Shown here piece by piece: positions 2,963 through 63,803 of a stretch of 64,000 nt of DNA. Both the position numbers and the translations under genes were made by a program. The stretch's first letter is position 1, and each line of letters opens with the position of its first letter. The notes beneath the pieces were generated by a model. That model was not told where the DNA came from. It was given only the letters and a program-made list of their open reading frames with translations, and did not search any database. The stretch comes from Scatophagus argus (lineage: Eukaryota; Chordata; Actinopteri; Scatophagidae): NCBI RefSeq assembly GCF_020382885.2, contig NC_058496.1, positions 18,270,501 through 18,334,500 of the forward strand, written 5' to 3'.

Positions 2963-4561
2963 TTCGCCCTATGCTACAGCAGCAGTACAGCTAAATGGAG
3001 AAAAATAGATGAGAAAATAGAAACCATGGAGGAGCCTCTGTAGGTTCTTATTGGAAGACAGCCCCACCCCTTCCCCTAGATTCACACACACACACACACA
3101 CCAGCACCAGTCATATGACACAAGCCATAGGTTTACAGTAGATTGGAGCCAATTTTACCACAGCTGGTCTTTGCTGGCCAAGTTTAAGTTCATATAATAC
3201 GTGAGGAAAATCCCATAATCCAATTCCAATTGTCAGTTAACATCAAAACCTATGCTCAGAAGAGAGTGAATTTCTAGGGACAGCTGTTAGCAGTAATAGT
3301 ACACATGAGCTATTAAATCTGTAAAGTCTTTGGTTTATTCTTTTCTCAGTTTTAGAATGAGGAAGGTGTATTCGATTTAGACATTGACAGCTACTTGGGG
3401 CTCATGTTTGGTTGCTGTCCTCATTTAGTGAGTTCTTGAATTCATTTCAGATATCCACACAGACGCAAGTTAATGTGACCTTAATTTTGACGGTCCTAGG
3501 AAAGCCCATTTGAGTTTACTGATATCTAATATAGCTCAATAGCCCGTCTAGTAAGCTCAGTTAAACTTGTGCCTAAAACAGTGAATTTAATTTAAAATTT
3601 TATTGACTGATATTAAAAAAAAAAGTGGCCTTTATTTTGGAAACTCCCTCAAGGACCGCTGGAGGTCCCCAGTCCGTAGTTTGGGAACCAGTGGCTTAGC
3701 CAGAGATCCTTATGGCAGGAAGAGTCTGAGGCTTTTCTCTTCAACCAAGCTGCATTATTAACTGGGAGATATAGGCCTCCTGGACCACGCCTCCTAAAAA
3801 AAAAGGACATTTTGTTCACAGAACTTCAGAGGCTGTCTTGGTTTGCTTTGCAGACCACGTGTCAGATTAAGTAACATGCTTTGAGGTCAACTTTCACAAC
3901 TTTTAACACATTTTCTTAGTCTGTGTAATGTGCTGCTACATACTGGCCCACAGTGTGAAACCATTTGGTTTAGTAAATGCTGGATCATCTTAAATTCTCC
4001 TGCTGGACAAGGCTTGTTAGAGTTATCTGATTTTACTATAATCACAAACCTCAACTTAACCACAGTAGTTTTTTTATTTTGCGTAAAACTTAATGTCATA
4101 CTGTAAATTTATTGTGTTAAATCAGTGTGTGTGGAAACCACTGGAATTAGTTTGTATTAAGCAACAGAGCTATTAAAGACTATTCGGCAAAAATACTATA
4201 TTTTTTGTAAAGTTGTTATTTTGGATCGCTTGGCTCAAATGATATGCAACCTCTTTTATTGTGAAACATCTTATTTATCCAAACATACAAACCAGGCATT
4301 TTAAAATCTAAATTATCCTTGGTAAAAGTTTGTGTATTTTTATATATGAAAACAAAAATCCCCAAAAAATACAAAAAAATATTCACTTTGGAATACAGTT
4401 TAGTTACAAGTGTGTAAAACCCTCAGGCTTATTTCATGTCATCATTTTACTTGTGAACAAATGCTATTTTTCAGAATAAAAAGAGCAACCGTATGTGACT
4501 TCCCTGTAAAGGAACGTGTGAACCTCTAGGTTAACGCTGCAGTCATTTTGTTCTGGCCGTG

Positions 4562-23740: not shown

Positions 23741-25829
23741 CAGGCGAAAGAGGTTTGAAACAGGAGGCAGCAAAGCTTCAGGTGCAAGAAAAAAAGGCTT
23801 TTATTTTCCAAAAATACATCAATACTCTAAATACACTGTCTGAGGGTAGATAAACTCGTGAATAAATGGGAATAACATAACCTCACAGCAGGTCATAGTA
23901 TTTCCCTCAGAGACCTCTGGAAGCTGAATGAGGTCTAAATGAAGAAATGCTAGAGACAAATTATATGATATTTCTGAACTCTGGGAGAAATGTTCCTGCT
24001 CTGGAGAGACACTCCCCTTCCTGCTGTTATTGTCTTTAGATATGCACTGTGATGACCAAAAGGTACCCAAGCAGAAAGAGTGCCAATTTCCAATTAACAT
24101 GTAAATACGAGGTGCTTTGTTCTGATTGGATATTTAAGGGAAACACAAAGATATGGTCTTTGAGCTATTCTGCTATCTTCAGACCTTCCATGCTCTGCAT
24201 GTAGCCATATCTATTTCAGGTATGCTATGTGATATTCTTGACTATTATCTTGCTTGATCGATCTGTTGACTGTTTGATTACTTTTTAGGATTACCTTAGG
24301 AATATCGTTTTATTAATTGTATGTCTATTTTGGTTATAATAACTGTCAGCTGTTAACTTGTAGTATTGCCTTGCTGAGATACTGTATCTAGCAGGCCTAA
24401 ATGCCTGTAGAGGTCTGGAGTCTGAGATTCTTTGAATTTCTAGACTTCATAGTTACATAGTTAGCATCAATGGGTGCTATACCACGCTCTTAACCGCTGG
24501 TGTAGGCTAAGTTCTGTACCGCTGAACATCTCAACCCAGGGCCCGGGCTATTTCCTATGTTTCATAGCTTGTCAGAATGCTTTAGACCTAAATCTCCTAT
24601 CCCTGAACTATTTAACCAGACTTAGTTCTGTTGAACACCTGTTTCTTAGGAGGTGTACTACTGATAATGGTTAACGGTTAAGTTCTACCTTGTAGACATT
24701 TTATAAATTGGAGTCAGATTGGTTAAAATTATTATCTCACCTAAATCTCATTCAAGCACCAGAAAGACAGAACCTGCATTGGGAGAACTCGCTACAAGCC
24801 TGTTAGTTTCTCCCCTTTCAACATCATTACTTGTGAGTGTGTAAATTTGTTTCATGGTATTTAATATTGTGTGCTTTTCATTGACCTTTGGGAGTGTGCA
24901 GAGGCTCCCTGACAGATGTGCACTTCAAATGAACTGAAGTTGAAGATGAAGTTAATACATCAATAGAGTTGCTGCTGGCTTGACAGATGTATATTGGATT
25001 TATTATGGCTCTGATTTAAGAAAAAAGGAGGAAAACCAGGAGATAAAATGCCACAAATTTACCCTAAAATGGAAATAGTTCAAGATCATTTAAAGCTGCA
25101 AGGTATGACTGGCAAAATTATAGAAAACTTTAAACCAGCAGGGTTGCTTGCATTTTAGTACTGTGTGTTTTGTTTATATCCCTGCAAAATGATTTGGCAG
25201 CACATGGCATGAAAATAAAATGCCAAAACTTAAAACCCTGAAACAACAGACACAATTCTTCTCATTCTGACTTTGTATTTGAGGACTTTTTTTGCATAGT
25301 TTAATCATGTCAGATGTTGTTGAACTCCTCTTCTGTTGGCTCTGCCCCGATTCTTCTTCTTGTCAACTCGTCCCCAGCATCTTTAAATGGAGCGTGTTTA
25401 GTTCAGGCACCAGACGTCTTCTGCTAGCTGCTGGTATTCTGCTGAAACAAGCAAACGTTACAAAGGTGAGTGTGATGTTTAGATGTGACCTTACAGTTAT
25501 GATGATGTACAGCACATGCCAGGACATCACACACTTTACATGTAGGTGGCCTGAAATGACCTATAGATCATCTGCTATGCATCTTTTAGGGCTGTTTCTT
25601 CAGCCAGCAGTACTGCACTCTCATGTAAGCAGTATCTATCATACAGTATCTGCAGAGACACTTTCACGACATGTGCTGAGGCTTTGTAACTGTGGACACT
25701 TCCAGCAGAAAAATGAAACCTAACAAGCACACTGTATTGTCTCACCATGTCCCCATCTCTTCTCAGGGCTGTTCCTTCCTGTCCTTTGTCATCCATTTTA
25801 CTCTTTGTTATCTGCTTAATTCACTCCAA
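23741..25829. other. intergenic, no supported gene
   Basis: The interval includes a 143-codon plus-strand ORF at 25292-25723. It has no recognisable domain, runs into repeat sequence, and is cysteine- and histidine-rich in a way typical of random AT/GC-mixed translation. No splice-flanked exon or RNA gene was recognised. Confidence 0.5.
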
Positions 25830-26045
25830 TTCAGTTCAGTTTATTTATATCTCCTGGCTGTATCACACAAACTTTGTAATACAGAGAACCCAACATTCCC
25901 CCATGAGCAAGCACTTGGCGACAGTGGCGAGGAGGAAAAACTGCCTTTTGGAAGGCAGAAACCTCGGAGCAGACCCCGGCTCTAGGTGGGCCGCCATCTG
26001 CCTTGACCGGTTGGGTTGAGAGAGAGAGAGAAGGAGAGAGAGAGG
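25830..26045 (+). mobile_element. teleost interspersed repeat ending in (GA)n
   Basis: It contains CAGTTTATTTATATCTCCTG, CCCCATGAGCAAGCACTTGG, CGACAGTGGCGAGGAGGAAA and CCGCCATCTGCCTTGACCGG, and ends in a GA-rich run (26018-26046). The same family occurs inverted at 23540-23740, and a shorter relative lies at 63112-63180. The ORFs across it are by-products. Confidence 0.75.
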
Positions 26046-26089
26046 GGTGGGGCTGGGGGTGGAATTTGGTTCCATCTCGAATTTGGTTC

Positions 26090-27027
26090 CATCCTCATCT
26101 CGGGTCTTTTGGGAGCTGATTCTCATCTCTTCTGTCATCCTGTGGCTCCTCCCTGTTCTTTCTGCTTTTTCGTCTTCTCGGGTCTTGAAGTTACGCGCAG
26201 ATAAACACACAGATTCAGACAGCTGTACTATTGCGTATACTGTGGTATGCAGTATTTCTCTGGCCATTTGACTTCTTTTAGTAACTCTTTGAAACAGTGA
26301 ACTTGGCAGGCAAAATAATGCAACTCCTACAGTTAGATTACCTCTGTGCCTCACTTTGTTCTTCCGTGTCCCTGCGACTTGGGCTCCCTTGTCTCTCTGG
26401 GCCTGGCTTCACATCTTGGGGCTGGTCCTCATCTCGCCTCTTATCCTTGGGGTCTTTTGGCCGTTTTGGATTGCTGAGTTGTTCAAAGAAAGACGTGAAG
26501 ACTGCATATTTCCTTGTAAACATCAAATATCTTCGTTTTATCCGTTTTAGATCTTGGGGAAAGACTAACCTTTGTTTGTCGAGTTGTTGTTCATCTCAAG
26601 TTCTGATCCTGGGTCTGCTTCTAATTTCTTTTGTCACCCAGGGGCTGTCGCTCACCTCATGGAGGACAAATCTTAAAGAACAAAACAGATAAAACTTCGG
26701 TTAATTCTGAGATTTATTGCATTTTCTCAGACAGCTACAAACCAAGTGCTTTTGTCATGACAACACTGTACATTTAGATCAATACTGATTACCAGTGTTA
26801 GTTAATCCTGAGATAAATCATTAAAATTTCTCAGACAGTAGCAGTGCTGTGTATTTAATTGGAAACAGAAAATATAGAGCCATTTTACCTCTTTGGTAAA
26901 CCTTCTGCAAGTCGTTCATCTCATGTTCTGATCCTGGATCTGTTTCTAATTTCTTCTCTCATCTGTTCGCCTTCACTTGTCTTGTCTGCTTTTGGGGTCC
27001 TCTGGGGTCTTATGTTTAATCCTTGTC
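26090..27027 (-). repeat. series of diverged related segments (minus strand)
   Basis: Read on the minus strand, four segments near 26940, 26600, 26400 and 26130 share purine-rich words: AGAAGAAATTAGAAACAGAT, CCAGGATCAGAAC(A/T)TGAGAT and ACAAAAGAAATTAGAAGCAG. They are spaced about 250-350 bp apart and are clearly diverged. The segment at 26921-27027 has a strong upstream acceptor and is used in the candidate gene below. The others may be decayed exon duplicates or pieces of a dispersed repeat. Confidence 0.35.
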
Positions 27028-28863
27028 CTGGAAGCAAAGAAAAAACAACCAAGCAGAATCCAGTGCAAAATATCTTTCCTGCTGCGCCACATTTTTCCAA
27101 AGGACCTGACATTTTACATTTGCAGAACAGAAACTGAAGAGAGACTATCTAAGAGTTAAAGGAGCGCTTGGCTGCAGGTTCACCTTTTGGGCGTCCAGCA
27201 GTTCTCTTACCTCCCCTGATGCCACCCTGCCTGTTTCTCTCCCTGATAATAGCCTGCATGTTCCTTACCCACTTTGGCCGGGGACCAGCTGTCATCGGAC
27301 GAGGCTTGGTGGGGTTCTGAGAACTCAGACATGTACTCACCTTACTGGGTACTTCAGGTCTGTCAGGGGAACTCAACACTGGCAGCTTCCTTGCTCTGGC
27401 TGGCGACCTTGCTCTGATCATCCTGTGGCCTGCTGGGAGGAGAGGCTGGAGAGGGGCTGGGAGACCTGAGAGAGCAGCCAGAACAGAAGGTGGAGCAAGA
27501 GCAGCTGAGAGAGCAGCCAGAACAGAAGGTGGAGCAAGAGCAGCTGAGAGAGCAGCCAGAACAGAAGGTGGAGCAAGAGCAGCTAGAGCAAGAGCAACAA
27601 AGATAGCCACAAGGTGTGGGAGGAGTAGACCTGGATGTGGAGCTCGGGGAGGAGCTGCTGGAGGGGCCTGGTGCTGGGATCCTCCTCAGGATCAGTCTCG
27701 GGCTGCCGGGCCGGTTGGGGTTGGGCACGAGGACAGATGTCCAAGTGGAACGCTGATCAGGCTGAACACACAAACAAACCTTTACATTTCTGATGCAGGA
27801 CACGTGAATGCAGCATCAACTGTTTGACTAACAAGTAATGATCATCACTACAATCCAGTAATACTCCGTTCAAAGTTAAAGACAATAAATTGTCTTTAAC
27901 TGGTTGAAGCTGCTCTAACTCTGTTGCAGGTGTGATGTTAAAGGACACGTGGACACTGTGCTTTTCTCAGCATCACCAGACACAACCTCAAGTCACTGAC
28001 AGTCAGCACTGATAGACTCAACGTACCGAGTGCAGCTTCACATCACTGACTGTACTCTGACATCATTCTGCTGTCAGTCAGAAAATATTTGATCCAAATG
28101 TTAATTCCCTTCAGAGCAGGACAACACATCTTACTGTCACCCTGGCTGTTTCACAGTCTCATAGCGCATCGTAGGTCAGATGAGGGGTTATATGACGAAT
28201 AACGTTCATAACTAAAACAGCTGCCAACATCTGCATCATTGGATCAGCTCAGTTTACTGTTCTAATGCATAATCCCTGGGATAATTTACTAATCCAGCTG
28301 ATTGTCTCGCCATAGAATCTGGATGCTTGATCACAGGTCACATTCATACGACACCTAATATCATACACATCATTCATTTTACCCTCAGCAGGTAGTTCAC
28401 ATGTTTCAGGAACATGTGATATAGTAGCAGCTTTACTTATCTCACTGAAAAGTAGATCTGAGATTGGACGTCAAAATGACACCATTTATTTCAAGGTTAT
28501 ATTTTGTCTAAAACCCCTTAGTGTCAAACAAAATAGTGTTTGTAGTTGTCTGTAAATATCTCTAACCTGTGTGTAGATGGTCTAAAAGTTCATGGAATTA
28601 TTTTTCTTTTCTCCACTTAATTATTTATGTCGTTTATTAACTGACGACTGAATTATTTGGCCTCGTTTGGCTATCCGACAATCCGTTTGTGTCTTCACAG
28701 AGTGAAATGCTGTCAGTCTGTCAGACCTGTTTAATTAAACCTCAAACTGTTTCACACATCAAAGGAATAAAGCATCAGAATTTTGAGGGTTCTGAAAGTC
28801 ACAGCGGTAAAATACTTAGCAAGACTAACTGCGCTTTAAATGAATAAATCTTACATCTTCCAT
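26921..28863 (-). CDS. candidate gene of unknown function, proline/serine/arginine-rich (possibly broken)
   Basis: A tentative minus-strand model. Exon 1 is 28855-28863 (ATG GAA GAT then donor GTAAGA). Exon 2 runs from acceptor TGTGTTCAG (27761) to a strong donor GGAG|GTAAGAG (27211). Exon 3 runs from acceptor TTGCTTCCAG (27027) to TGA at 26921-26923; phases fit between exons 2 and 3. Exon 2 opens with PDQRSTWTSVLVPNPNRPGS, then SPRLILRRI and a Pro/Ser stretch, and ends in a basic region with GKRTAGRPKGEPAAKR-like sequence on read-through. The opening frame and the closing frame differ, and the change falls at or inside a 39-bp triple repeat. So there is a frameshift, an unseen short intron, or a pseudogene. 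I recognise no family. Confidence 0.3.
27467..27583. repeat. 39-bp tandem repeat, three identical copies
   Basis: Units start at 27467, 27506 and 27545 (TGAGAGAGCAGCCAGAACAG and onward). On the minus strand each unit ends GGCTGCTCTCTCA(G), a pyrimidine-rich stretch resembling a splice acceptor. The period is 13 codons, so any frame stays open through the array; this accounts for the cysteine-rich and alanine-rich ORFs here. Confidence 0.9.
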
Positions 28864-30050
28864 GCTGAAACAGCTTTGTTCCTTTTTACTGGGTCGTCAG
28901 CTGTTGTGGGATTTAAACAAGGTGTGGATGGAGGTCGTCTCTTTCCAGAAATCGTTGAGTGAAACCTTTGAAAAGCACTGCGTGTATTCTCGGCTGAAAC
29001 TCACTTCGTTTATGTTCGAATGATCGTCATGTCAGAATGATGCACGTGGAGACATCACGTAGCAACCACAGAATCCTTCAGTCGTTACCGCAGTGAGCCC
29101 GAACACCGTCAGCAACATTCACATACATGCTTACATATCACATGCGTACAGTTTTGTGCAAAAGTTTTCGGCATGTGCGAAAAAATGCAGTAAACTAAGA
29201 CTGCTGTCAAAAATATAAATAAGAATTGTTTATCTCTATCATTTTACAACTTGAAAAGAAAAATCTAAAATCGAATCAATATTTGGTGTTACACCCTTTG
29301 CCTTCAAACCAGCATCAGTTCTCACAGGTACACTTGCACAAAGTCAGGGATTTTGTAGATTCAAGATGTGTGCACAGTAAGGAGAAGGTTTTCCTGTACA
29401 ATGAAATTCTTACTTTGCTGTCCACACTGAAGGCCAATAAAAGTATAAAGTATACTAAAGAGAATAGAATCATTTAACAAAATACAGTGGTGTAGAATAT
29501 CACCTTGCTCTCGAGGAAAATAAAAACCTATGAAAATATTTCTCCTACAGCCATCAGTCTCCCTGAGGGTACATGCTGCAGAGACAGCAAGATTTAGAAA
29601 ATGTCCTCTTCAATAATGCAGCAGAAATTCTGCTTGGAACATTCTTTTTTTTTTTAGAAAAACCAAACTGTCAAACAATCTCTCTTCAGCGGGCTCTTAG
29701 TACACTTGACTGTTGAAGGGGGGATAATTTGCTGTTGTTAAAAAATAGATGCAGTAAAATGTATCTGATCTATGTGAATAAAACACTTTGGCATAGCATT
29801 GACTGAGCATCATTAGAAATGGACGAAAACACCTTTAGCTGCTGAGTGACTGAATGGCTCAAGAGTAGAAGGGCAGTACGAAGTGTACTGAACTGTCCAG
29901 ACACTGAAGATAAGATAAGATAAGATAAGATGAACTTTATTGATCCCGCAGTGGGGAAATTCACTGTGGCAGCTCACAAGGACAGAAGAGTGAATGTATC
30001 AGTGTTAGAAAAGCCGCGGTAGCCACAGCCACAGTTTACACTATTTTAAG

Positions 30051-30089
<39 letters not shown>

Positions 30090-30779
30090 TTTTTTGTTTT
30101 CTTTAAATGTTTTTTTTTTCCATGTGCGGTAAATCATATGGGTAAGCTGTAGGCTTTTTTGAACAATATATATTTATGTGTGTAGCTGACCTGTCTTGTC
30201 TATCGGAAACTAATAGAAACAGTAAGCTCAGCCTGCGCCAAAACCCACAGCTCACTTTTCTATGACACACAAATCTGCAAGCACAGCAACCACTCCATAC
30301 TGTATATGTCTGGATATCTTTCCAAATCTGTTGTTATTATGTAATTATGGTTGAGTCGAGATGATCAGGTGAGTATTTATTATGTACTTGGAAATGTAAA
30401 ATATTTCTCATACTTGTTAGTTTGCTGCTTGCATGCAGCTTGTTATCAAAAACAGTTAATTATCAGTGAGTTGCATATGTGTGTATTATAGCCACAACTT
30501 AATTTGAGAAAAAAATCATTGCTTCCGAGTGCTTCCTCCTCTCGCCTGTAGTCAGCTGGGATAGGGATATTAGTTTTAGTTTGTTTTTCTAGTTTTCCAC
30601 AATGGAGACAGAGTAGGCTACAGTGTTTGACACTAGTTGTACCTGCCCAAAAAACAGAAGACTGCTTGGGTACGGCTACACCACTTGGACAAACCACACA
30701 CAGAACTGCAGCACACCATAATACTAGAACCGGCAGTTGTAATACTGGAAATTTCCTAAGTTTTGTTATGATTCTGATT
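28864..30779. other. intergenic with simple repeats, no gene seen
   Basis: It contains a GATAA-tailed interspersed fragment (29909-29965: GATAAGATAAGATAAGATGA then CTTTATTGATCCCGCAGTGG) and an (AAT)n microsatellite at 30051-30088. If the minus-strand candidate gene is real, its promoter lies just right of 28863. Nothing else is supported. Confidence 0.55.
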
Positions 30780-31850
30780 GCAGGACGAGCCTTTAGCTAT
30801 CAGGCACCCCTGCTGTGGAACCAGTTGCCAATCTGGGTTCGACAGGCAGCCACCTCCACTTTTAAGACTAAACTTAAAACCTTTCTGTTTAGTAAAGCAT
30901 ATAGTTAGCCCCAAATAAAGTGTGTAGGGCTGGTAGGCATAGTTACACTCACCTCATGATATATAGCCACAGGTAGAATAGGTCTGACTAACTGTTAGTC
31001 TTTAAATCTCTATCATAGCTATGCTGCTATAGGCCTATGCTGCCAGGGGACACAAACATGATCCACAGAGCAGTTCCCCCTCCTCCTTTTCCTCTTCTAT
31101 CCTGTCCCCTCATCAGATTAACATACAATTCATTATTTTATGTCACTAACTGTGTGTCCAGTTCTCCTCGTAGTTTTGTGTCTCTCCCTCCCTCTCTCTC
31201 TCTCTCTATATATATATATTTCTGCAGGTATCTCTCCATCCAGATCTTCATGTTGAGCTGTAACCGGCTCTATGACCAACCCAATGTCTACCGTTGACAT
31301 CTGCCTGTCATTCTTCTGTGCACCGACTATCAGCGGGGTGGTTCTCCCTTGCGGGCCAAAATTGAACTGAATAGAATTGATAGGATAGTGGTTTTCAACA
31401 GCATATGAAAAATACATGAATGATACAGCATTTCATTATAATTTCATTATTATAATTTCAGTCTTGTGAAATGTTAAAATCATATTGAGGTGGTATCAAA
31501 AGTGAAACTGAACAGATGAATCACATGAAAATTTAAAAATTTTTATGAGTTGAGATTTTGTTTTACTTGTCTTTTTAGTAATGTCGTTCTCATGTTGTTA
31601 ACTGCTTTCCTGCCTGTACAACATCCATTGCACGTCTGCCCATCCTGGGTGAGGGATCCCTCCTCTGTTGCTCACCCTGAGGTTTCTTCCATTTTTTCCT
31701 GTTAAAGGTTTTTCTGGGAGTTTTTCCTTAGTCGATGTGAGGGTCGAAGGGCAGAGGATGTTGCTGATGTTATGTTAAGCCCTTTGAGACAAACTGCTTG
31801 TAAAAATGGGCTATACAAATAAAGTTGTCTTGTCTTTTCTTGTCTTATAT
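30780..31850 (+). mobile_element. LINE 3' end (ORF2 C terminus plus 3' UTR)
   Basis: Frame 30783-30908 encodes GRAFSYQAPLLWNQLPIWVR then STFKTKLKTFLFSKAYS, the standard C-terminal tail of fish non-LTR retrotransposon polymerases (RAFS..AP.LWN.LP....STFK..LKT.LF). The 3' UTR follows with the GAGGTTTCTTCC and GTTTTTCTGGGAGTTTTTCC words common in teleost LINE tails, and it ends AATAAAGTTGTCTTG with TCTTG repeats near 31819-31848. It is heavily 5'-truncated and dead. Confidence 0.75.
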
Positions 31851-32185
31851 CACAATTCTAAAACTGCTTTCTTAAGGTTTCACAATCAGGACGGGCATTT
31901 ATTAGAACTTTAGCTTTTGAAGTCACATATCTCATATTTTTCACTTTCACACCACAAAAGAACTGCTCTGCAGACCCACATTCAAATGGAGTCTCAAAAC
32001 ACAGAGACATCACAGTCATCTCATCCAAACATTTTTATTCCATTTTTCAGGCCATGATGTAAATAAAGGTTGTAGACAAATTCTGTTAATAAAGTTTAAA
32101 TTACAAAAAATGTATTTAAAAAAGTTGAAAAAAAAGAAAAAGAAAATACGATGATGTCACAGCACAGACCAAAACCACGGAATGC

Positions 32186-32292
32186 GTTGATGTCACCAAC
32201 TGGCTTTGATCTTTTTCCTTAAATGCAGTTAAATCCACAGTTGCATATCGGCGATGATGTCACCAACTGGCTTTGATCTGATTCCTTAAATG
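32186..32292 (+). repeat. 67-bp-spaced direct repeat upstream of the 895-codon ORF
   Basis: TGATGTCACCAACTGGCTTT followed by GATCT and then TTCCTTAAATG occurs at 32186-32225 and again at 32253-32292, with a few differences. The second copy lies 122 bp before the ORF start, so it could be promoter sequence, but no function can be read from it. Confidence 0.7.
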
Positions 32293-32413
32293 AGGTGCAA
32301 TGTACAGATACGTATTGGCAGAGCTACAGTCAGGGACCGACCTCAGCTACGTACAAAAACATATACAAGAGATACACACAACACATTCAGCACAATAATA
32401 CAAGAAACAATAA

Positions 32414-35101
32414 TTGGAAATGTACAACATGCAGGCAGGAAAAAAGATAAGCACGCTTGATCAGAATGTGAGAGCAGAGGGAAAGCTTCTTAAGAAACGT
32501 TGGCAGAAACAGCAAGAGCCAAAAACAATGGAGGTGCAGCCAATGAAAAAAAATTATGTGCTTACAGAAGAGAACTTTCAAGGAGGATTTTTGCTTGAGC
32601 TTCAACGGAATAGCGATCTCAGGGAATACAACAGCAAACTCCAAAAGAGGAATATTGACACGGAGAATGCAGAAACGCTAATTAAAAACAGGGAAAGACA
32701 GCAAGAAATGGTTGAACATGAAAACCGCAAGTATGAAAGTCAGATGCGGTATGGACAGAGAACTGAAGAAATGGTGCACCAAAGAAAGACCGAGCGATCA
32801 GAAAGGGACAGGAAACTCCAGATGCGCAACCAGATTGTTGCAGACAATCTGGCAGCCTCAAACAAGGACCAGGCTACTGCTATGGCCCTGAAGGAGGAGC
32901 AGAGACTTGCTAAAGATGTGGCTAAAATAGATGCTAAAGACGCAGAGCGGCTGAAACAAAAGAAGGATGAGAGAGCTGCAATGCATCAGTCAATTTCTGC
33001 TAGCAATCAGTCAATGATAGGGTTGAAAAAGCAGAGGGAACAAGATGAACGTCAGCTCTGTATGAACCAGCTGCAGATGGACAAAAACGCTGACGGGTTG
33101 TTCATGGAAGAAACCAAAGTGAAGGCTCAGAAAACCAAAGAGAACAACATCCAAGTGAGTAAATTCAATGCCAACATGGCAAGTCAGAAACAAGCCCACC
33201 TTCAGCAGCTGAAAAGGGAAGAACATGAAGCTGAAGCCAGGAATGCAGAACAGACTGCTATGGAGGAGAAACAATTCCAGCAGCGTGTGCAGCATGATCT
33301 TCACAAGGCTTCAGAGAAGCTACAGAAGAAACGTGGAGAACTCCAGAATTTGCAGCTCAGCAATAAAAAGACTACCCACCTCCCACCCATTTCCAAAGAA
33401 AGATTAACTGTAAAGGGTCAGACTTGCCTCTCCTCTTCACCTGATGACTCTGAGGTTCAGGTGCCCTCTACAATTGCACCATATCCTTGCCTCCCACCAA
33501 TTTCCAAAGCAGTTAACAACCGAGGAGAACATCATCCATTTTTGCATGAGCTTCAACGGAATAGCGATCTCAGGGAATACAACAGCAAACTCCAAAAGAG
33601 GAATATTGACACGGAGAATGCAGAAACGCTAATTAAAAACAGGGAAAGACAGCAAGAAATGGTTGAACATGAAAACCGCAAGTATGAAAGTCAGATGCGG
33701 TATGGACAGAGAACTGAAGAAATGGTGCACCAAAGAAAGACCGAGCGATCAGAAAGGGACAGGAAACTCCAGATGCGCAACCAGATTGTTGCAGACAATC
33801 TGGCAGCCTCAAACAAGGACCAGGCTACTGCTATGGCCCTGAAGGAGGAGCAGAGACTTGCTAAAGATGTGGCTAAAATAGATGCTAAAGACGCAGAGCG
33901 GCTGAAACAAAAGAAGGATGAGAGAGCTGCAATGCATCAGTCAATTTCTGCTAGCAATCAGTCAATGATAGGGTTGAAAAAGCAGAGGGAACAAGATGAA
34001 CGTCAGCTCTGTATGAACCAGCTGCAGATGGACAAAAACGCTGACGGGTTGTTCATGGAAGAAACCAAAGTGAAGGCTCAGAAAACCAAAGAGAACAACA
34101 TCCAAGTGAGTAAATTCAATGCCAACATGGCAAGTCAGAAACAAGCCCACCTTCAGCAGCTGAAAAGGGAAGAACATGAAGCTGAAGCCAGGAATGCAGA
34201 ACAGACTGCTATGGAGGAGAAACAATTCCAGCAGCGTGTGCAGCATGATCTTCACAAGGCTTCAGAGAAGCTACAGAAGAAACGTGGAGAACTCCAGAAT
34301 TTGCAGCTCAGCAATAAAAAGACTACCCACCTCCCACCCATTTCCAAAGAAAGATTAACTGTAAAGGGTCAGACTTGCCTCTCCTCTTCACCTGATGACT
34401 CTGAGGTTCAGGTGCCCTCTACAATTGCACCATATCCTTGCCTCCCACCAATTTCCAAAGCAGTTAACAACCCTTTAACTGCTAAGGTTCCAGCTACAGG
34501 AGGGCGTCGTGACAGACCCCCCCCGGATCGCAGACACTTATCTCCAGATACTTCGCAGCCAACGCCCAAACGTGGCAGGCCTAAGATTGAGAAAGAGCCA
34601 CAGAGTGGCAGATCCCCCCCGGATCGCAGACACTTATCTGCAGATACTTCGCAGCCAACGCCCAAACGTGGCAGGCCTAAGATTGAGAAAGAGCCACAGG
34701 GTGACAGACCCCCCCCGGATCGCAGACACTTATCTGCAGATACTTCGCAGCCAACGCCCAAACGTGGCAGGCCTAAGATTGAGAAAGAGCCACAGAGTGG
34801 CAGATCCCCCCCGGATTACAGATACTTATCTGCAGATACTTTTCAGCCAATGCCCAGACGTGGCAGGCCTAAGACTGAGAAAGAGCCACAGAGTGGCAGA
34901 TCCCCCCCGGATTACACCTACTTATCTGCAGATACTTTTCAGCCAATGCCCAGACGTGGCAGGCCTAAGAAGAAGAGACAGCTGCAGCGTCACAACGTGG
35001 AGCAGCCCTCTGAACATCGCTGTCCTCGCTACAACGTGAAACCTCACCCCCCCCCTCTGGGCTATAAATATGTAAACAAGCAGAGGAACAAAATGAAATA
35101 A
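32414..35101 (+). CDS. intronless 895-residue coiled-coil protein with AT-hook repeats (uncharacterised)
   Basis: A single uninterrupted ORF. Residues 1-57 form a basic leader. Residues 58-369 and 375-686 are two essentially identical copies of a highly charged, Gln/Glu/Lys/Arg-rich helical region (LQRNSDLREYNSKLQKRNID..., KEEQRLAKDVAKIDAKDAER...), looking like a long coiled coil of the trichohyalin/plectin-homology type found in ciliary and filament proteins. That resemblance is by composition and pattern only. Residues about 700-860 are five 32-residue repeats (PPPDRRHLS.DTSQPTPKRG RPK...), each with an AT-hook-like core RGRPK preceded by K or R; the last runs into KKKRQLQR. The C terminus is basic. 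A coiled-coil plus AT-hook layout suggests a dimeric DNA- or chromatin-associated protein, but this is inference. Absence of introns over 2.7 kb points to a retrogene or lineage-specific gene. Confidence 0.6.
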   Translation: MEMYNMQAGKKISTLDQNVRAEGKLLKKRWQKQQEPKTMEVQPMKKNYVLTEENFQGGFLLELQRNSDLREYNSKLQKRNIDTENAETLIKNRERQQEMVEHENRKYESQMRYGQRTEEMVHQRKTERSERDRKLQMRNQIVADNLAASNKDQATAMALKEEQRLAKDVAKIDAKDAERLKQKKDERAAMHQSISASNQSMIGLKKQREQDERQLCMNQLQMDKNADGLFMEETKVKAQKTKENNIQVSKFNANMASQKQAHLQQLKREEHEAEARNAEQTAMEEKQFQQRVQHDLHKASEKLQKKRGELQNLQLSNKKTTHLPPISKERLTVKGQTCLSSSPDDSEVQVPSTIAPYPCLPPISKAVNNRGEHHPFLHELQRNSDLREYNSKLQKRNIDTENAETLIKNRERQQEMVEHENRKYESQMRYGQRTEEMVHQRKTERSERDRKLQMRNQIVADNLAASNKDQATAMALKEEQRLAKDVAKIDAKDAERLKQKKDERAAMHQSISASNQSMIGLKKQREQDERQLCMNQLQMDKNADGLFMEETKVKAQKTKENNIQVSKFNANMASQKQAHLQQLKREEHEAEARNAEQTAMEEKQFQQRVQHDLHKASEKLQKKRGELQNLQLSNKKTTHLPPISKERLTVKGQTCLSSSPDDSEVQVPSTIAPYPCLPPISKAVNNPLTAKVPATGGRRDRPPPDRRHLSPDTSQPTPKRGRPKIEKEPQSGRSPPDRRHLSADTSQPTPKRGRPKIEKEPQGDRPPPDRRHLSADTSQPTPKRGRPKIEKEPQSGRSPPDYRYLSADTFQPMPRRGRPKTEKEPQSGRSPPDYTYLSADTFQPMPRRGRPKKKRQLQRHNVEQPSEHRCPRYNVKPHPPPLGYKYVNKQRNKMK
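32587..34472 (+). repeat. 951-bp-period tandem duplication inside the coiled-coil ORF
   Basis: 32587-33521 recurs as 33538-34472. By eye the copies differ only near their left edge (GCTTGAGC versus GCATGAGC). Reverse-strand by-product frames are also identical in both, so third positions are conserved as well. The period is 317 codons, keeping frame. The two are joined by a short segment encoding RGEHHPF. Confidence 0.95.
34510..34989 (+). repeat. five 96-bp coding repeats with AT-hook-like cores
   Basis: GGAT at 34525, 34621, 34717, 34813 and 34909 marks a strict 96-bp period (32 codons). Copies 1-3 are almost identical (GATCGCAGACACTTATCT); copies 4-5 share their own variants (GATTACA, CCAATGCCCAGACG). 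This pattern indicates stepwise expansion. Each unit encodes (K/R)RGRPK. Confidence 0.95.
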
Positions 35102-35176
35102 GATGACCAGCCAGACCAACTTACTTAATTCCTGTCCCATCTCCTCATTTAACCACTTTTGTTGTTTGCACCGCTT

Positions 35177-36270
35177 CCTTACTGTCAGGTTCTGATTCAT
35201 TCCAGACCTTTCTTTGAGGGATTGATGGGTTTACGCCGGGTGCTCCGGTTTCCCCCACTCAATTATCCAGGTGAAATTAGCAAAAATATATTGCTAATTT
35301 TAGCTGGATAATGGGGAAAAAAACAAGTCAGCGGCAACAAATATACAATTTCTGACCTCATATTTTCATCTCTGACATTCCCTTTTCCTCTTCATCTTTC
35401 CCTTCATTTTAATCTGTTTTAATTATTCTGCTGACTGCAAGTTTTCCTTCCATTTTGTTTTAGGACACCATGCAGTCTCAGTGCTTAGCACTGGTTCCTT
35501 ACAGTCAGGTTCTGGTTCATTCCAGACCTTTCTTTGAGGGATTGATGGGTTTACGCCGGGTGCTCCGGTTTCCCCCACTCAATTATCCAGGTGAAATTAG
35601 CAAAAATATATTGCTAATTTTAGCTGGATAATGGGAAAAAAAACAAGTCAGCGGCAACAAATATACAATTTCTGACCTCATATTTTCATCTCTGACATTC
35701 CCTTTTCCTCTTCATCTTTCCCTTCATTTTAATCTGTTTTAATTATTCTGCTGACTGCAAGCTTTCCTTCCATTTTGTTTTAGGACACCATGCAGTCTCA
35801 GTGCTTAGCACTGGTTCCTTACAGTCAGGTTCTGGTTCATTCCAGACCTTTCTTTGAGGGATTGATGGGTTTACGCCGGGTGCTCCGGTTTCCCCCACTC
35901 AATTATCCAGGTGAAATTAGCAAAAATATATTGCTAATTTTAGCTGGATAATGGGAAAAAAAACAAGTCAGCGGCAACAAATATACAATTTCTGACCTCA
36001 TATTTTCATCTCTGACATTCCCTTTTCCTCTTCATCTTTCCCTTCATTTTAATCTGTTTTAATTATTCTGCTGACTGCAAGCTTTCCTTCCATTTTGTTT
36101 TAGGACACCATGCAGTCTCAGTGCTTAGCACTGGTTCCTTACAGTCAGGTTCTGGTTCATTCCAGACCTTTCTGTGAGGCATTTACAGGTTTACGCCGGG
36201 AGCTTCGGTTTCCCCACTCAATTATCTGGGTGAAATTAACAAAACCCAATGCTAATTTTCGCTGAATAAC
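35177..36270. repeat. 320-bp tandem satellite, three full copies and a diverged partial one
   Basis: The marker CAGTCAGGTTCTGGTTCATT-like start recurs at 35181, 35501, 35821 and 36141, exactly 320 bp apart. Copies 1-3 are nearly identical; copy 4 is diverged and truncated at about 36270. Each unit contains an imperfect 20-bp palindrome: TTATCCAGGTGAAATTAGCA against TGCTAATTTTAGCTGGATAA, with nine bases between. It starts about 80 bp after the stop codon of the 895-codon ORF. Confidence 0.93.
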
Positions 36271-36616
36271 CAGAAAGGTTAATAATTAAATAAATAAATG
36301 TACATATCAAAATAAAAAGAGAAAATACAAGTAAATAAATATCTAATATTTGTATTTCATGTAAAACCAGAAATCGATAACCCTGTTCAAAAATAAAATG
36401 CTGCGATAGATAAATATATTTAAATAATAATAAGTCTATAAAATTAGAAATCACAAGATAAAATCCAGACTGAATAAATGGGTTTTCAATTTTACTGAAA
36501 TAATGACTACAGATACAGAGATAGATTTAACTCTTACAAACCTATATCTATAGAGCTATAGATCTTATGATCAGGCAAATTTCCTTTGCCTGTGGCGCTG
36601 GTCTTCATGTCTCCTC
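36271..36616. other. AT-rich spacer before the Penelope-like ORF
   Basis: Low-complexity AT-rich sequence with many AAATAAATA-type words. No reading frame of reverse transcriptase type extends into it, so the Penelope-like element is 5' truncated close to 36617. Confidence 0.5.
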
Positions 36617-37603
36617 TTGTTGTTACCTACCATGGAAGCTTTGGAAACAGTAAGAGAGCGACTTACACAGGACGACTCCCTCCAGGACAGAACAAAACTC
36701 AGACCAGAACACATATGCCAACTTCTGGATTTGTGCCTAAACACCACATATTTCCAGTTCAATGGCAAATTTTACAGACAGAAACATGGCTGTGCCATGG
36801 GTTCACCAGTATCTTCCATTTTGGCCAATGTATACATGGAGGAAGTGGAGCGCAGGGCCCTGAGCCACTGGTTCAGATATGTGGATGACACGTGGGTCAA
36901 AATCAAAACGCAAGAAGTGCAAGCCTTTACTGAACATATCTACTCAGTGGACAGGAACATCAAGTTCACCAAAGAAGATGTTAAAGATAGTAGTTTGCCC
37001 TTCTTAGATTGTGACGTCCATATAGAAAAGGACAGGAGCCTCCACATTGGGGTATACAGGAAACCCACACACACAGACCAATACCTCCTTTTCGACTCAC
37101 ACCACCCTTTGGAACACAAACTTGGTGTTATCAGAACCCTGCAACACAGAGCTGATAAGGTACCCACCAGCTCGGAGGCCCAAGGGGAAGAACATAAACA
37201 CCTGAGGGATGCCCTCAAAATGTGTGGTTATCCCAGTTGGACCTTTGTGAAAACTGCAGCTGGTTCCAGGAAGAACACCACCAAGGTGGTTGAGGAGAAA
37301 AAACAGGACAAAAGAAATAACATAGTCATCCCATATGTATCTGGGGTATCAGAAAAACTCAGGAGGATCTTCAGCAAGCACCGTATCCCTGTGTATTTCA
37401 AACCCAGCAACACACTCAGACAGAGACTAGTACATCCCAACGACAGAACACCACACACTCAGAAAAGCAATCTGGTGTATGCTGTCCAATGCAATGAGGA
37501 ATGCAAAGACCTCTACATTGGGGAGACAAAACAACCACTACACAAGCGCATGTATCAGCACAGGAGGCCCAACTCCTCAGGCCTAGATTCTGTCAGCTGT
37601 TGA
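36617..37603 (+). mobile_element. Penelope-like retroelement, 5'- and 3'-truncated (RT plus partial GIY-YIG)
   Basis: This 328-codon ORF begins inside the reverse transcriptase domain. QKHGCAMGSPVSSILANVYM (motif B region) and FRYVDDTWVKIK with the catalytic YVDD (motif C) are clear, followed by LPFLDCDVHIEKD and VYRKPTHTDQY, the palm/thumb signature of Penelope-like elements. The C-terminal LVYAVQCNEECKDLYIGETK and HKRMYQH are the start of a GIY-YIG endonuclease, which is cut off after PNSSG by LINE-derived sequence. The frame is intact otherwise, so insertion or loss is not very old. Nothing suggests a current function. Confidence 0.9.
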
Positions 37604-37853
37604 GGAGTCTGATGGCTGAGGGAAAGAAAGAGTTCCTGAGTGTGGTGGTCTTGCACTTCACACTCCTGTACCTCCTGCCTGAGGGGAGGAGACCAGAACT
37701 GACCAGAACTTGTTGGAGGTGGGTGGGGTCCTCAATGATGGAGGCAGTTCTCCTACAGACTCTGCACTGGTAGATGCTCTGCAGATAGGGCAGAGGAGTC
37801 CTGGTGATCTTAGACGCAGCCTTCACCACTCTCTGCAGGCATTTGTGGTCCAT
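37593..37853 (-). mobile_element. LINE ORF2 C-terminal fragment (minus strand)
   Basis: Minus-strand translation contains CLQRVVKAASKITRTPLPYL, CRRTASIIEDPTH and LLPSGRRYRSVKCKTTTLRN SFFPSAIRLLNS, the C-terminal tail of fish L2/CR1-clade polymerases. It abuts and truncates the Penelope-like ORF. It faces the plus-strand LINE piece that follows. Confidence 0.8.
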
Positions 37854-37870
37854 GACTGTAGAGCTGCCTT

Positions 37871-38491
37871 AACACACGGTGATGCAGCTGTGCTGACCAG
37901 CTCTGTGAGGTGGTCATGTACATCTTCAACCTAAGCCATAGTCTGGAGAGGGTCCCTGTCCTGTGGAAGACCTCCTCTGTGGTTCCATTTCCTAAGACTG
38001 CACACCTCAAGGAGACAAACCACTACAGGCCTGTCACCTTGACCTCCCACCTGATGAAGACCATGGAGAGGCTCACCCTCAGCCACCTTCACTCTGTGGT
38101 GAGTACAGCAATGGACACGCTGCAGTTTGCCTACAGGCCAAACATCGGGGTAGATGACGCTGTCATCTACCTGCTGCACCGGGCGCTGACTCACCTGGAC
38201 AGAGCAGGAGTGGACGGACATTTGGCTGCTTGGAAGAAGACTCTGCAGAGGGTGGTGACAGCTGCACAGAAGACTGTGGGACACAGCCTATCCACAACCA
38301 CGGACATTTACACCTCCAGATGCAGGATAAGGGCCTCCTGCATCATGAAGGACCCCACCCACCCCTCACACAAAATGTTTGCCCCTCTCCCCTCAGGCAG
38401 GAGGTTGCAGGACCAGAGCAGGACCACCAGACTGAGGAACAGCATCTTCCCAGAAGCTGTGAGACTGTTGGACTCTGGAGGTCGTCTGTAG
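37871..38491 (+). mobile_element. LINE ORF2 fragment with internal deletion (plus strand)
   Basis: Plus-strand translation starts ADQLCEVVMYIFNLSHSLER, then VPFPKTAHLKETNHYRPVTL TS and AYRPNIGVDDAVIYLLH, which is the front of the RT domain. After HLDRAGV it jumps directly to LQRVVTAAQKTVGH and to the tail DPTHPSHKMFAPLPSGRRL. The catalytic middle of RT is missing, yet the frame is kept. A related but different tail lies in opposite orientation at 37593-37853. Confidence 0.8.
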
Positions 38492-38599
38492 CCCCTGCTG
38501 CTACCCCATACCTTACACCCCACCCACCCCCCAATGTTCAATGTTATTGAAAGATTACTAAAAGAAAAAGAAAATGGAAATAAAGCAAACACACAGAGT

Positions 38600-40259
38600 C
38601 AGGTGACCTCATTGGCATAAACATCAGGTTACTGAGTTTTTAAATCACTTCAATAAAACTGAACGTAAGTTTGCAATCACTCATGAGTTGGTTTCTGAGT
38701 TAAGTAACACGGTGCGGCCACTAGATGGCGCCATTTTCCATATAACTGACAACGACCTTCCTCGCCTCCTCTCCCAGATTCACTGCTTCAGGGACATTTC
38801 TTTCAGAGATCACCAACCTACTGAGGTATTTGTTCCTGTCATTTTACAAATGCTGGGAATTTGTTTCACATTTGACTGACACACACAAAACCACTAAGCA
38901 AGCTATTTCCTGTCTCATCAAAACAAAACACAATGTGAGTTTGAGCAAAGGAAAGTGTTTCTGCCTTATATCAAGATCCTTTTCTGCAGTTGTGATACAG
39001 TCCTTCCTTCACTCTTTCACTCCTCCTCGGTGTAGTCAGACTGAACTGAGGTCAGAAACAAAACACTTTCCTTCACCCCCCCCCCCATTTTCTTCTTCTT
39101 TCACCAGAGCAAGAAAAGTGTTTTATTGCTACTTATATGCAGATTCTGCAGTTACTGCAGTTTAGACTTTCTTCTGTGTTGCATTTGGCCTCTGTATGCT
39201 GATCAGAGCTGGTCAGTCAGTCATTTAATAATCTCCTAAAATATAATTGGGACTTTGTATAGAAGAAATAGTGATTTCCTTGTTGTAATTGTAATTTACA
39301 TTTTCCATGTTCAGCTCAGCCGATGCCATGACTAGTAGACTTTTTGAGATACACCAGCTATTAATCAATGTTAAGGAGAAGTTTACCAAGTGAACACCAT
39401 CTCTATTTTATGTATAACTAGTGCCACATAGTAAAAATAGTAAATGGTTTGGAATTTTTGGATTCTTAATATTACAACAATTTACAGGTAATTATTTGGA
39501 AAATATTCTTTAATATTCAACCTTTTAACCTACAGCACATGGCATGACATTTGAAGGCCCTTAAAAATAAGTGATCATTTAAATCTGGATATATGTCTAA
39601 GGATGGACGCAGAATGACGCAAAACTCATGAAGCGCATAAGATTAACACTGTTACCAAACTGAACTCAGATGGTGCAAAATACTTGGATACTACAACTTG
39701 ATCTTGAGGGTATTTAGTGTGAATGAGGAAGGCTTCATCTTTCTTTGAATTAAAGGTCCACCATGTTCCTACAGTAGCCCAGAACGGACAAACCAAACAC
39801 TTGATCTTTCACATTTTTTGTGTTTTTAGCGGCCATTAGAGGCGATGGTGAGGGGAGGGGTATAGAGTTTGTCACAACCTGCAACCTCACTGTGGAATGC
39901 CACTAAATCCTACTTACTGGAGCTTTAAATAGTATGCGGTCAGTTTCCTCGTAATTCACACATCATATGACAGGACAGTTTTAAGTATGAGAGAATAGAT
40001 AACTTGAAAAACGCAGACTACAGAATATGATTTGTAGCCCATAACTGACCACATGGTGGCGATATTCCAGCATGTATATTAGATGATGCTTTCATGTTCT
40101 CCAAAATTGACCACCATTCAGAAAAAAAAGAAAAATCAGAAAAAAAACAACCCAAACCCTAACTCAACCCCCTAAGTTGAAATAATAATAATAATAATCA
40201 TAGAGATGGGAAAGCTTAGTATGTTAAAAGTGAGGCTACTCTACAATTATAAATGGACG
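38600..40259. other. intergenic upstream of marveld2, nothing recognised
   Basis: Short ORFs only. AT-rich with a C-run at 39078-39087 and an (AAT)n run near 40184-40198. No exon or RNA gene is supported. Confidence 0.55.
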
Positions 40260-41325: not shown

Positions 41326-44300
41326 ATGTCGTCAGGAGGAGTTGGTTCTGTCACCAGGTTTGACCGGGTGCGGGAGATCCCACACTATGACCAGGTCCCT
41401 GTGGACTCCCTTTATCGGGACTCGAATTTCCCTCCACCCCCGCCACCAATGAATGGGACATTGCTGGCCTCGAGCTTGGACCCCCTTCCCCCTCCCCCTC
41501 TACCAGAACAGCCAGCTGTTGGACCTGAATCTTTCTACCCCCCCAGCGATGATGAGCCAGTGGAGGGTGACTGCGATGCCATGGACATTAAGCCGGTACA
41601 TCGCTTCATCCCCGACTCTGTCAAAAACTTTTTCCGTGGCAACAGTGGTAACCGTGGCAGCAAGGGCTGGTCCATCCCCCATCCTCCACCTGCTCCTCAC
41701 TCTCCGGCCCCCTCATCCAAGAAGAGCGCCAAATGCCACTCCACGGCAGGAGTCCCCTGCTCACCTCCCCACTCCACCCCTTCATCTCCATCCCTTCCTG
41801 GCTCCTATCGGGATCCATACGGCGGCTCTGGGGGCAGCTACAACTCTGAGAAGGAGCGGGACGGCCTGCTGCTGGGTGCTGAAGCCCTCGACTCCGTGTC
41901 TGCAGTGCCCACCAATCTCTCAGCCCTGACCTACCAGGAAAGGGTGGAGGAGTACCACCAGCGCTACGCCTATATGAAGTCATGGGCTGGTTTGCTGAGG
42001 ATACTGGGTTGTGTGGAGCTGCTGCTGGGAGCTGCTGTGTTCGCCTGTGTCTGTGCTTATGTTCACAAGGACAATGAGTGGTTCAATATGTATGGATACT
42101 CTCAGCCACAGCTGTTTGGGGGGCTTGGGGGAGGTGCTGGTTATGGAGGTGGTTACTACACCGGCCCCAAGACACCTTTTGTCTTGGTGGTGGCTGGTCT
42201 TGCGTGGATAATGACTGTTATTCTGGTTGTTCTTGGGATGAGCTTATACTATAGAGCCATCCTTCTGGACTCTTCTTGGTGGCCGCTCACAGAGTGTTCC
42301 ATCAACCTGGTCTTGGCGGTGCTCTATTTGGCAGCAGGCATAGTGTATGTAAGGGACACCACTCGAGGAGGGCTGTGCAATATACCGGTATTCAATAACG
42401 GAATAAACGGAGCATTCTGTCGCACTGAAGCCGGCCAGACAGCAGCCATCGTCTTCCTCTTCATCACCATGGTGCTCTACTTCATCAGTGCAGGAGTATG
42501 TCTGAAGCTGTGGAGGCATGAAGCAGCCAGAAAGAGGAAGGAGGAGTTGGCACAGGAGGTCTGACACACACACACACTTGTGTGGGCTGTCACTGATATT
42601 ATGCATTCCATAGCCCCTAACCTTAACACAGCTGCGATGATTGCAGTGCTGACCGCCAGAGTTCATTAAAAGTGCTTTTTTTTGCCACTCACAGGCTGAG
42701 ATTATTACTCTTAAGTGTCTGTCAACATTACGAAGAAATCCCAAATGAGAAAGACCTTTTTGAGGATGGAAACATGAGTCAGAGTTGGAGAGAGTAGTTT
42801 ATCAGTTTTTGAGCCATGACAAATGCGAAAATGTTGCCTGCAAATTTTGAACCAAATAAAAAATAAATGTGTACACAACAATTTCCTGCAGGATCAATAA
42901 AGTTCTTATCTTAAATGCGTACAAGAATATTAGGCTGATGTTCCTTGTAGTATATAAGCTTAGCTGCAGACAGGTGCACTCATCGAGACACACACACACG
43001 ACCAAATGCAGTCCCTCCAGACTTCTCCTGGAACACACAGACATAAAAATGCTATAATAACAATATCACTTGTCTCAAAGAATGCTATAAGGTTTAATCA
43101 GATGTTGCATAATGTTTTTTGCATGTTTTGGACCATTTTTTTAAGAATGCATTTTTCAGATTTTGAATGTTCGTGTTTCTCTAACTAACTGTAGTTAGTG
43201 GTCTTTAACTTTCCAAAATGCTTGAAGAGTTCATTAAAATAGCCCATTGAATTGTTTTCAACTCTTTACATTGTGGATACCTAATTAATCACTGCCTGTC
43301 TCTGCTTCCCATCACAATAAAATCTAGATGAAAACTATTGGATCATCGGTCCCTCTGTCTATAGTAAGTATGAAGATATCTTTTTAATGTTCTAGCAGAC
43401 ACTGAATTGCACACAGTATACCTGAACTGAGCACATGACTGTGTGCTGTAGATGGGTCCAGGCTCCAGGGTGTCAGAACAGACTCCTCCTCCCACCATCC
43501 AGCCAGACATCATGGACACTCCAAACAACCCTACAGCTGCTTCCCTGATGAAGATGGAGCCAGAGATCCTCCGAGGACACATACCAGCTGGACACATCCC
43601 CAAACCTGTTGTTATAGCAGACTATGTGGCGTGAGTATTGTCTTCCTTGTCATATTCTCCAGAAATATTTTGTTTTCAGGGTGTCAAGCCTTTCAAATAT
43701 GTATGGCTCATGTGCATATTTGACATCCAAATGAATTCCCATCTGAAGGTTCTCTTAAGCTCTTCGTTAAAGACACAGCCACAGGTTTTGTTGTAGTTCT
43801 TCATTGCGTTCCATCACTTCAAAGTCAGCAAACTTTGCTATCATCTGCATCTGAAACAGCCATAGAAACACATCACAGTTATTGAATGTGATAAGAACTT
43901 TTCCGTCCGATGAAGATCTATGGTAATTACTGAAAGGTTTCCACTGACAGACAGCAAAAAATTTGAACTAAACCCCTAATGCTAATACTAAAACTAATCA
44001 AGCAGATGTCGTCCACAAACAACCCAAAGCCCCTGTTTGTTTCAGGCTACTATTCCTCTATTGCAGCCCTGAGGAAACGCAAGGCAATTTAGTACAAAAA
44101 GAAATTTTATATTAAAAAGATTTTGTACTAAATAGATTTGAACTGACCCATTGGATTTATCAGACTGCAGCCTCACTTCAGAGAAAGTTCGTCGAGCATT
44201 TTATACAGAACTGTATACAGGACTTTATACAGAACTGTAGACTTTGTCTCCCATCACTTGTACTGGCACATCATGAAGGAATCTTTTAAGGTCCTGTATG

Positions 44301-63500: not shown

Positions 63501-63803
63501 TGAAGGCACAGTGGCCGGTGTCCACTTGCTCAGCTGCTAGGCTTAATTTGTTTCCGTAATTTTAGCTTAATATGAATGTAACTCTGACTCTGTCCCCGCT
63601 CTGTCAGACCCTGAAGTCTCTAAAGGTGAGGGTGTCAGTAATCGGCCTGTCAGCGGAGGTTCGTGTGTGTACGGTGTTGACCAGGGAAACGGGTGGCTCG
63701 TACCACGTCATTCTGGATGAGAGCCACTTCAAAGAGCTGCTGATGCTGCATGTCAAACCTCCTCCAGCCAGTTCCTCATCTGAATGCTCTTTAATACGCA
63801 TGG
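60519..63803 (+). CDS. gtf2h2: general transcription factor IIH subunit 2 (p44), 3' end outside window
   Basis: Nine exons cover about the first 252 residues (human protein 395): 60519-60574, 60664-60741, 61087-61123, 61836-61922, 62018-62068, 62346-62400, 62983-63088, 63409-63499 and 63608-63803 (donor ATGG|GTCAGT); phase holds at each junction. The sequence is close to human p44: [33 protein letters not shown] (von Willebrand A-like domain, DCSRS at residues 66-70), [45 protein letters not shown] and [20 protein letters not shown]. The C-terminal zinc-binding region is not in the window. p44 is a core TFIIH subunit that contacts and stimulates the XPD helicase in transcription initiation and nucleotide excision repair. 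Confidence 0.95.
63100..63330. mobile_element. teleost repeat fragment in gtf2h2 intron 7
   Basis: ATACAGAGACCCAGCATTCC, CCCCAAGCGACAGCGGTGAG and GAAAAACTCCAACTGAGATG, then GTTTTAAGTCTACTCTTAAT and GAAACTGGTGGGTGGTTCCA, are words of a dispersed teleost element. It is related at its left end to the repeat at 25830-26045. No ORF. Confidence 0.6.

Follow-up and report, generated by a model that had tools for sequence, protein, structure and literature searches.

A probable CFAP210 retrocopy with a doubled coiled-coil rod and a basic repeat tail in the genome of Scatophagus argus

Introduction

CFAP210 (CCDC173) is described, in a study of mouse sperm doublets, as forming long-helix filaments on the inner wall of the B-tubule with a 48-nm periodicity (PMC10663601). 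The gene described here, from the fish Scatophagus argus, shares with CFAP210 a long helix and a colinear stretch of about 270 amino acids, including the segments EEQR(I/L)AK...RAAM..SI and QL(R/K)(K/R)EEHE; it is unlike CFAP210 in being intronless, cut at both ends, doubled in tandem and joined to a basic repeat tail. For this tail the closest described systems are AT-hook proteins of the HMGA type, with which the gene shares the RGRPK core, neighbouring basic residues and the occurrence of several such cores per protein, although its array stays below the Pfam AT_hook cut-off, its hooks are joined to long helical rods, and the core is absent from related remnants on contig C19.

A further comparison is with the ampliconic testis gene families that occur on sex chromosomes. 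Several copies on one chromosome, youth, gene conversion and replacement-rich change are features common to those families and, as read here from sequence alone, to this gene, whereas sex linkage and testis expression, which also mark those families, are for this gene no more than possible. No gene combining a doubled CFAP210-like rod with an RGRPK array appeared in the literature, among the matches listed, and an annotated orthologue is quite possible, since few fish gene models, to our knowledge, are ever treated in publications.

The gene lies in a stretch of 64,000 nucleotides, hereafter the window (C4:18270501-18334500), of a 570.7-Mb genome.

Structure of the locus

The open frame at 32414-35101 of the window comprises 895 codons and is directly preceded by in-frame stops. 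Because codon 1 is TTG and the first ATG lies at 32420, the likely protein starts at this ATG and has 893 amino acids (Table 1), with a computed mass of 103.8 kDa and a pI of 9.8. The preliminary description, made from the letters of the window, had reported an intronless 895-codon frame that joins a duplicated block to five RGRPK repeats; apart from the start, which is moved to the ATG, this layout was recovered in full, the 893-aa frame being unbroken and the introns of CFAP210 absent from it. Over 926 bp, at an offset of 951 bp (317 codons), the two blocks show no difference at all, and over 935 bp they are 99.9% identical; the RGRPK cores lie at residues 718, 750, 782, 814 and 846 of the protein. 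The double-block frame is real, and is neither a product of chance nor a slip of the assembly, because three other loci on the same contig share it intact while carrying block differences of their own.

Table 1. Coordinates of the gene, its parts, its surroundings and its intact copies (positions in the window unless a contig is named).
Feature	Position	Strand	Remarks
Longest segment common to another copy (B), giving the extent of the segmental duplication	24954..37580	+	
5' segment, likely 5' UTR or end of the shared unit	32316..32419	+	common to decayed cluster
Open reading frame, first ATG to TAA, 893 aa, intronless	32420..35101	+	intact also in three other C4 copies
N-terminal segment, about 59 residues, outside the exact duplication	32420..32595	+	common to decayed cluster
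Coiled-coil block 1, CFAP210-derived	32596..33521	+	predicted long helix, aa 50-307
Coiled-coil block 2, identical in sequence to block 1	33547..34472	+	offset 951
96-bp tandem array, five units with RGRPK core (AT-hook-like)	34509..34970	+	Pfam AT_hook below cut-off
RGRPKKKRQ, NLS-like basic run (monopartite) overlapped by the last hook core	34955..34981	+	sequence
320-bp tandem repeat, 3.5 copies, apparently grown from the family's 3' flank	35165..36269	+	
Penelope-like fragment, RT above cut-off, GIY-YIG below	36617..37603	+	co-duplicated with the gene to about 37580
Copy A	C4, 18.68 Mb	-	intact double block
Copy B	C4, 19.45 Mb	+	intact double block
Copy C	C4, 20.97 Mb	+	intact double block

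Descent of the coiled-coil block from CFAP210

Pfam TPH (PF13868) reached 7.1 bits on the block (E 2.3), below its gathering cut-off of 27 bits. No Pfam family reached its cut-off with the gene's protein and no known transposon protein was recognised, a match of that kind having been proposed in the preliminary description as evidence against a gene; Gelsolin (E 0.01) and two other Pfam names (E 0.026 and 0.058) fall below their cut-offs and are taken as compositional. A PDB search with the block returned designed coiled coils only, at E 0.12 or worse, and no CFAP210, while PDB searches with the tail, with the protein of a relative on C16 (see below) and with a two-row profile each gave no match. 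Among the viral contigs searched there were three pattern matches and no relatives.

Within the fish genome, the sole match outside the family at E<=0.1 was C11:12.488 Mb, both for the block (E 0.028 and 0.073) and for the C16 relative (E 2.3e-5). This locus is a multi-exon gene whose exon translation, joined by eye, has 530 aa and matches eight PDB sequences. The best is 8snb_3N, named as a TPH-domain protein (E 2e-99); chains named CFAP210/CCDC173 include 7rro_o (E 1.6e-86) and 7ung, 9cpc and 8i7r (E 6e-85 to 3e-79), and the remaining matches are more distant, down to E 1.2e-7. Against Pfam TPH the C11 gene scores 103.7 bits (E 9.9e-30).

The block aligns colinearly to the C11 CFAP210 at 32% over 270 aa (E 6e-24); for the C16 relative the identity is 31% and the aligned length 394 aa (E 4e-24). 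The alignment of the block scores 129 bits, against maxima of 78.6 in 500 local shuffles and 64.3 in 500 heptad shuffles. The similarity is significant and colinear, CFAP210 is the nearest relative outside the family in the fish's own genome, and an origin of the gene from CFAP210 is well supported. Full membership of CFAP210 does not extend to the block, which lacks the N-terminus and the C-terminal GGG.GP...RLGF.W motif that the C11 gene has; it is a truncated, diverged and intronless relative of CFAP210 (CCDC173). The earlier hint at ciliary proteins of the TPH type thus held by way of CFAP210, an axonemal B-tubule protein. The claim that no vertebrate family has this layout stood in part: the coiled-coil half belongs to the CFAP210 family, whereas searches of this genome turned up the fused layout nowhere else.

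Neither the block nor the C16 relative has the two CFAP210 introns that separate the exons at L023:2997-3170, 3331-3480 and 3591-3743, and by alignment the preceding intron is missing as well. Because introns interrupting this stretch of CFAP210 are missing from both, we infer an old retroposed cDNA, and the family is probably an old retrocopy lineage of CFAP210, the C11 gene being the intron-containing relative, or putative parent, that the preliminary description had suggested seeking elsewhere in the genome. Inspection of the ends by eye, with the decayed cluster as the sole reference, showed no clear poly-A tail or target-site duplication.

Relatives and the order of events

The C16 relative (C16:2664366-2665517; L022:4366-5517) is an intact CFAP210-like gene that neither Pfam nor PDB searches named. 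Like the C4 gene it is intronless, and it shares 41% identity with the block in 264 aligned columns and has a similar 3' flank (75% over 127 bp); unlike the C4 gene it has a single block and 384 aa, and stops just before the hook region. Between the block and this relative Ks is about 1.0, near saturation, and Ka/Ks is 0.47 over 318 codons, some of them poorly aligned, which suggests that the intronless CFAP210 derivative arose long ago.

Broken relatives lie on C19 and at C16:1.914 Mb. The form at C19:15.32 Mb comprises a block tail, two hook-like units (RARP and FGKP, with a TGA inside) and the same tail as on C4, and because of this shared tail the tail appears to be older than the C4 copies. 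The RGRP core itself is absent from the two C19 remnants (one has RARP and FGKP, the other none), and RGRPK was found on C4 only, in the four intact copies and in unit 4 of a decayed cluster. The 320-bp repeat downstream of the gene was matched, in a search that skips very common words, only behind family members, namely at the C4 loci, C16:2665734 and C19:15325397 (20 matches). Part of this repeat recalls what we take to be a common fish repeat, and its independent insertion keeps some small likelihood; the several colinear matches on C19 favour its descent.

These relationships would be consistent with a retroposed CFAP210 cDNA that long ago gave rise to a small family without introns. Within the C4 branch, doubling of the rod took place in frame (951 bp), and the gene there carries a basic tail of four or five 96-bp units with an RGRPK core. 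The locus may represent a new gene caught very early: one genome preserves the parent family, a relative with one block, copies in decay and four intact copies of recent origin, which allows intron loss, rod doubling, growth of the basic array, dispersal and gene conversion to be placed in sequence. Its product, were it translated, would be a case of an axonemal protein converted to DNA binding.

Four young copies on C4

A DNA search of the genome with a 1001-bp query gave at least 31 matches, which group as four intact double-block copies on C4, a tandem cluster of four units, also on C4, and further matches located on C19 and C16. The intact copies span 2.7 Mb, and the cluster lies between them. 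Copies A, B and C have frames of 863 codons (861 aa from the ATG); each carries four hook units, where the window copy has five. Pairwise, the four coding sequences differ at 2 to 6 of 2490-2586 aligned sites (0.08-0.24%); all eight differing sites are replacements, and the synonymous count is zero in each of the six pairs. The intact frame had been taken as the sign of a working or very young gene, and its youth and its intactness in four copies are both evident from these comparisons; as evidence of a working gene the intactness proves little, since it follows in large part from how recently the copies arose.

Similarity to the window begins at 24954 for copy B, 27787 for copy C and 29505 for copy A; at the other end the main match stops at 37580 in all three, with an extra, separate match of copy A to window positions 37744-38230. 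Beyond 37580 the copies run on in sequence unlike that of the window. Because the starts differ and the main end is common, the dispersal of the four copies reflects segmental duplication rather than transposition. A mobile element that includes the frame and carries it about, for instance together with the downstream fragment that we presume to be Penelope-like, is accordingly hard to credit: four dispersed copies, an RT and GIY-YIG fragment downstream and a dispersed repeat upstream would fit such an element, but intact copies were found on one contig only, with differing starts and the common end at 37580, the region 31800-38700 has no inverted repeat pair of at least 25 nt, and the coding part derives from the host's CFAP210.

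Residues that differ between blocks vary from copy to copy. Copies A and C have N..L T in block 1 and I..S M in block 2 (three differing residues), copy B has N..L T and N..L M (one), and the window copy has I..S M in both (none). This pattern argues for gene conversion between the blocks, which would explain their identity, and against a simple duplication in the assembly. An assembly artefact behind the 926-bp identity was considered and rejected on these same between-block differences.

The decayed cluster and evidence on translation

The tandem cluster (C4:19.314-19.344 Mb; L015-L018) consists of four decayed units of about 8.7 kb, each with block 1 and a shortened block 2 that lacks 576 bp, in frame, in all four units (frame read in one). 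The block is split by a hAT-like insert whose ends read TAGTGATG and CATCACTA, accompanied by the 8-bp repeat ATGCGGAA; three of the four units have both ends (755-760 bp), and the fourth has the right end only (189-bp gap). A gap of 2.3-2.5 kb precedes the block, with in-frame stops beside the nearest candidate splice sites (by eye, in one unit). The cluster was considered as an intron-containing parent and rejected, the gap in its block being the hAT-like insert and its 2.3-2.5-kb gap having no GT-AG at the homology edges.

Comparison of the window copy with unit 4 of this cluster, the hook array left out, covered 491 codons. A simple count, in which codons with several changes were scored as replacements, gave 3 synonymous changes, 49 replacements and no stop; a pathway count, with six between-block repeat events dropped, gave 46 independent changes, of which 5 were synonymous, 41 replacements and none a stop. 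Neutral simulation (1500 replicates) produced on average 11 synonymous changes and 2.1 stops, giving P values of 0.019 for five or fewer synonymous changes, 0.11 for no stop and 0.002 jointly, in tests picked after the data had been seen. The transition share was taken from an overlapping flank, and shares of 0.5 and 0.67 gave similar results.

The coding part differs at 52 of 1477 sites (3.5%), against 17 of 1097 (1.5%) in the non-overlapping flank (P 0.002). This faster coding rate is not proof of selection, because the far flank of unit 4, with one difference in 468 bp, may have been exchanged recently and may thus differ in history from the coding part. Small indels number none beside 52 substitutions in the coding part and two beside 17 in the flank, a borderline result (P 0.069), and the coding part of the cluster is itself broken by large inserts. 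Replacement-rich change without stops suggests a frame that was still translated, whether unconstrained or diversifying; in the comparison with unit 4 there is no sign of residue constraint in the C4 branch.

These data bear on a possible, though not the probable, account in which the copies are non-functional young duplicates, the frame being open only because the copies stem so recently from a single intact ancestor, with ordinary tandem-repeat turnover behind the array and the blocks. The very low divergence of the copies and the replacement nature of all eight differing sites would be consistent with this account, as would the breakage of the sister cluster by the hAT-like insert (complete in three of four units) and the 2.3-2.5-kb gap, the broken state of the relatives on C19 and at C16:1.914 Mb, and an indel test short of significance. 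It is less readily reconciled with the absence of stops in 491 codons and the few synonymous changes relative to the cluster (the joint result above), or with the intact C16 relative, whose Ka/Ks to the block is below one half at a Ks near saturation.

The basic tail and a proposed role

The tail carries a net charge of +28 over 201 residues and has a pI of 10.96. At the level of the motif it has a GRP core with basic neighbours in five copies, which fits the AT-hook consensus. The AT-hook label of the preliminary description therefore stands for the fivefold RGRPK core and not at the level of the Pfam profile, where AT_hook (PF02178) gives 7.5 bits on the array, short of its cut-off of 17.4, against 24.9 bits for an HMGA2 control; the missing RGRP core of the two C19 remnants also speaks against it. 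Each hook is at best a weak match, so that several in a row would be needed. The RGRPKKKRQ run at the end of the array is presumably NLS-like, by the consensus we assume for such signals.

AlphaFold2, applied to the N-terminal segment plus block 1 (two sequences), predicted one helix, with pLDDT of at least 80 from about residue 61 to 270, a model mean of 73.9 and a pTM of 0.25. The predicted rod would be about 39 nm long at 1.5 Å per residue; a single straight predicted helix would say nothing on partners.

The reading that we find best, and rate as just on the probable side, is that of a young chimeric retrogene whose product, a helical rod, would bind DNA in the nucleus, perhaps in the male germ line. 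We infer its function as follows. The protein would combine a very long helix with a tail that is strongly basic and NLS-like; most likely it would enter the nucleus and bind AT-rich DNA multivalently through several weak hooks, and the doubled rod may give self-association. The male germ line would be the most likely site, since CFAP210 sits in sperm axonemes, and the microtubule role of CFAP210 has probably been lost, because its N-terminus and conserved C-terminal motif are missing.

An axonemal role might instead have been kept, with a CFAP210-like rod of doubled length lying along B-tubule protofilaments and the basic tail bound to tubulin tails rather than DNA. CFAP210 ancestry and an uninterrupted predicted helix are consistent with this, as are the filaments of long helices, repeating every 48 nm, that CFAP210 forms in mouse sperm doublets (PMC10663601). 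We nevertheless regard it as unlikely, as the block represents only the part of CFAP210 without the N-terminus and conserved C-terminal motif, and the tail has both RGRPK and the NLS-like run.

A nuclear role in the male germ line could also be cast as that of a selfish or conflict-driven gene, though we think this quite improbable. Here a sperm-tail retrocopy with a DNA-binding array would have been amplified on a chromosome with a dmrt-like cluster, homogenised by gene conversion and altered mainly by replacement, and would act in male germ-cell chromatin, possibly as a meiotic or post-meiotic driver or as the suppressor of one.

Neighbourhood of the gene

Upstream of the gene, two 67-bp direct repeats (32184-32317) contain TGATGTCA motifs. 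This sequence, which we take to be CRE-like, occurs at 32152, 32188 and 32255, and the whole window has nine CRE-like octamers. Farther upstream lies a dispersed repeat (30900-31848) with matches on at least 17 contigs among the 40 scored of 2101 candidates. A 39-bp minisatellite of 3.2 copies (27466-27596) lies in a segment that is present beside copy B too.

Frames at 41326-42564, 44624-44998, 52859-53665, 57738-57998 and 63311-63559 of the window match MARVEL, Occludin_ELL and Ssl1, and probably represent two MARVEL-family tight-junction genes and a TFIIH-subunit-like gene; presumably these are MARVELD2, occludin and GTF2H2, in the same order as on human 5q13. The contig that holds all four intact copies also has three DM-domain matches within 50 kb (C4:25026474-25073893), a trio that we take to resemble the dmrt1-dmrt3-dmrt2 cluster.
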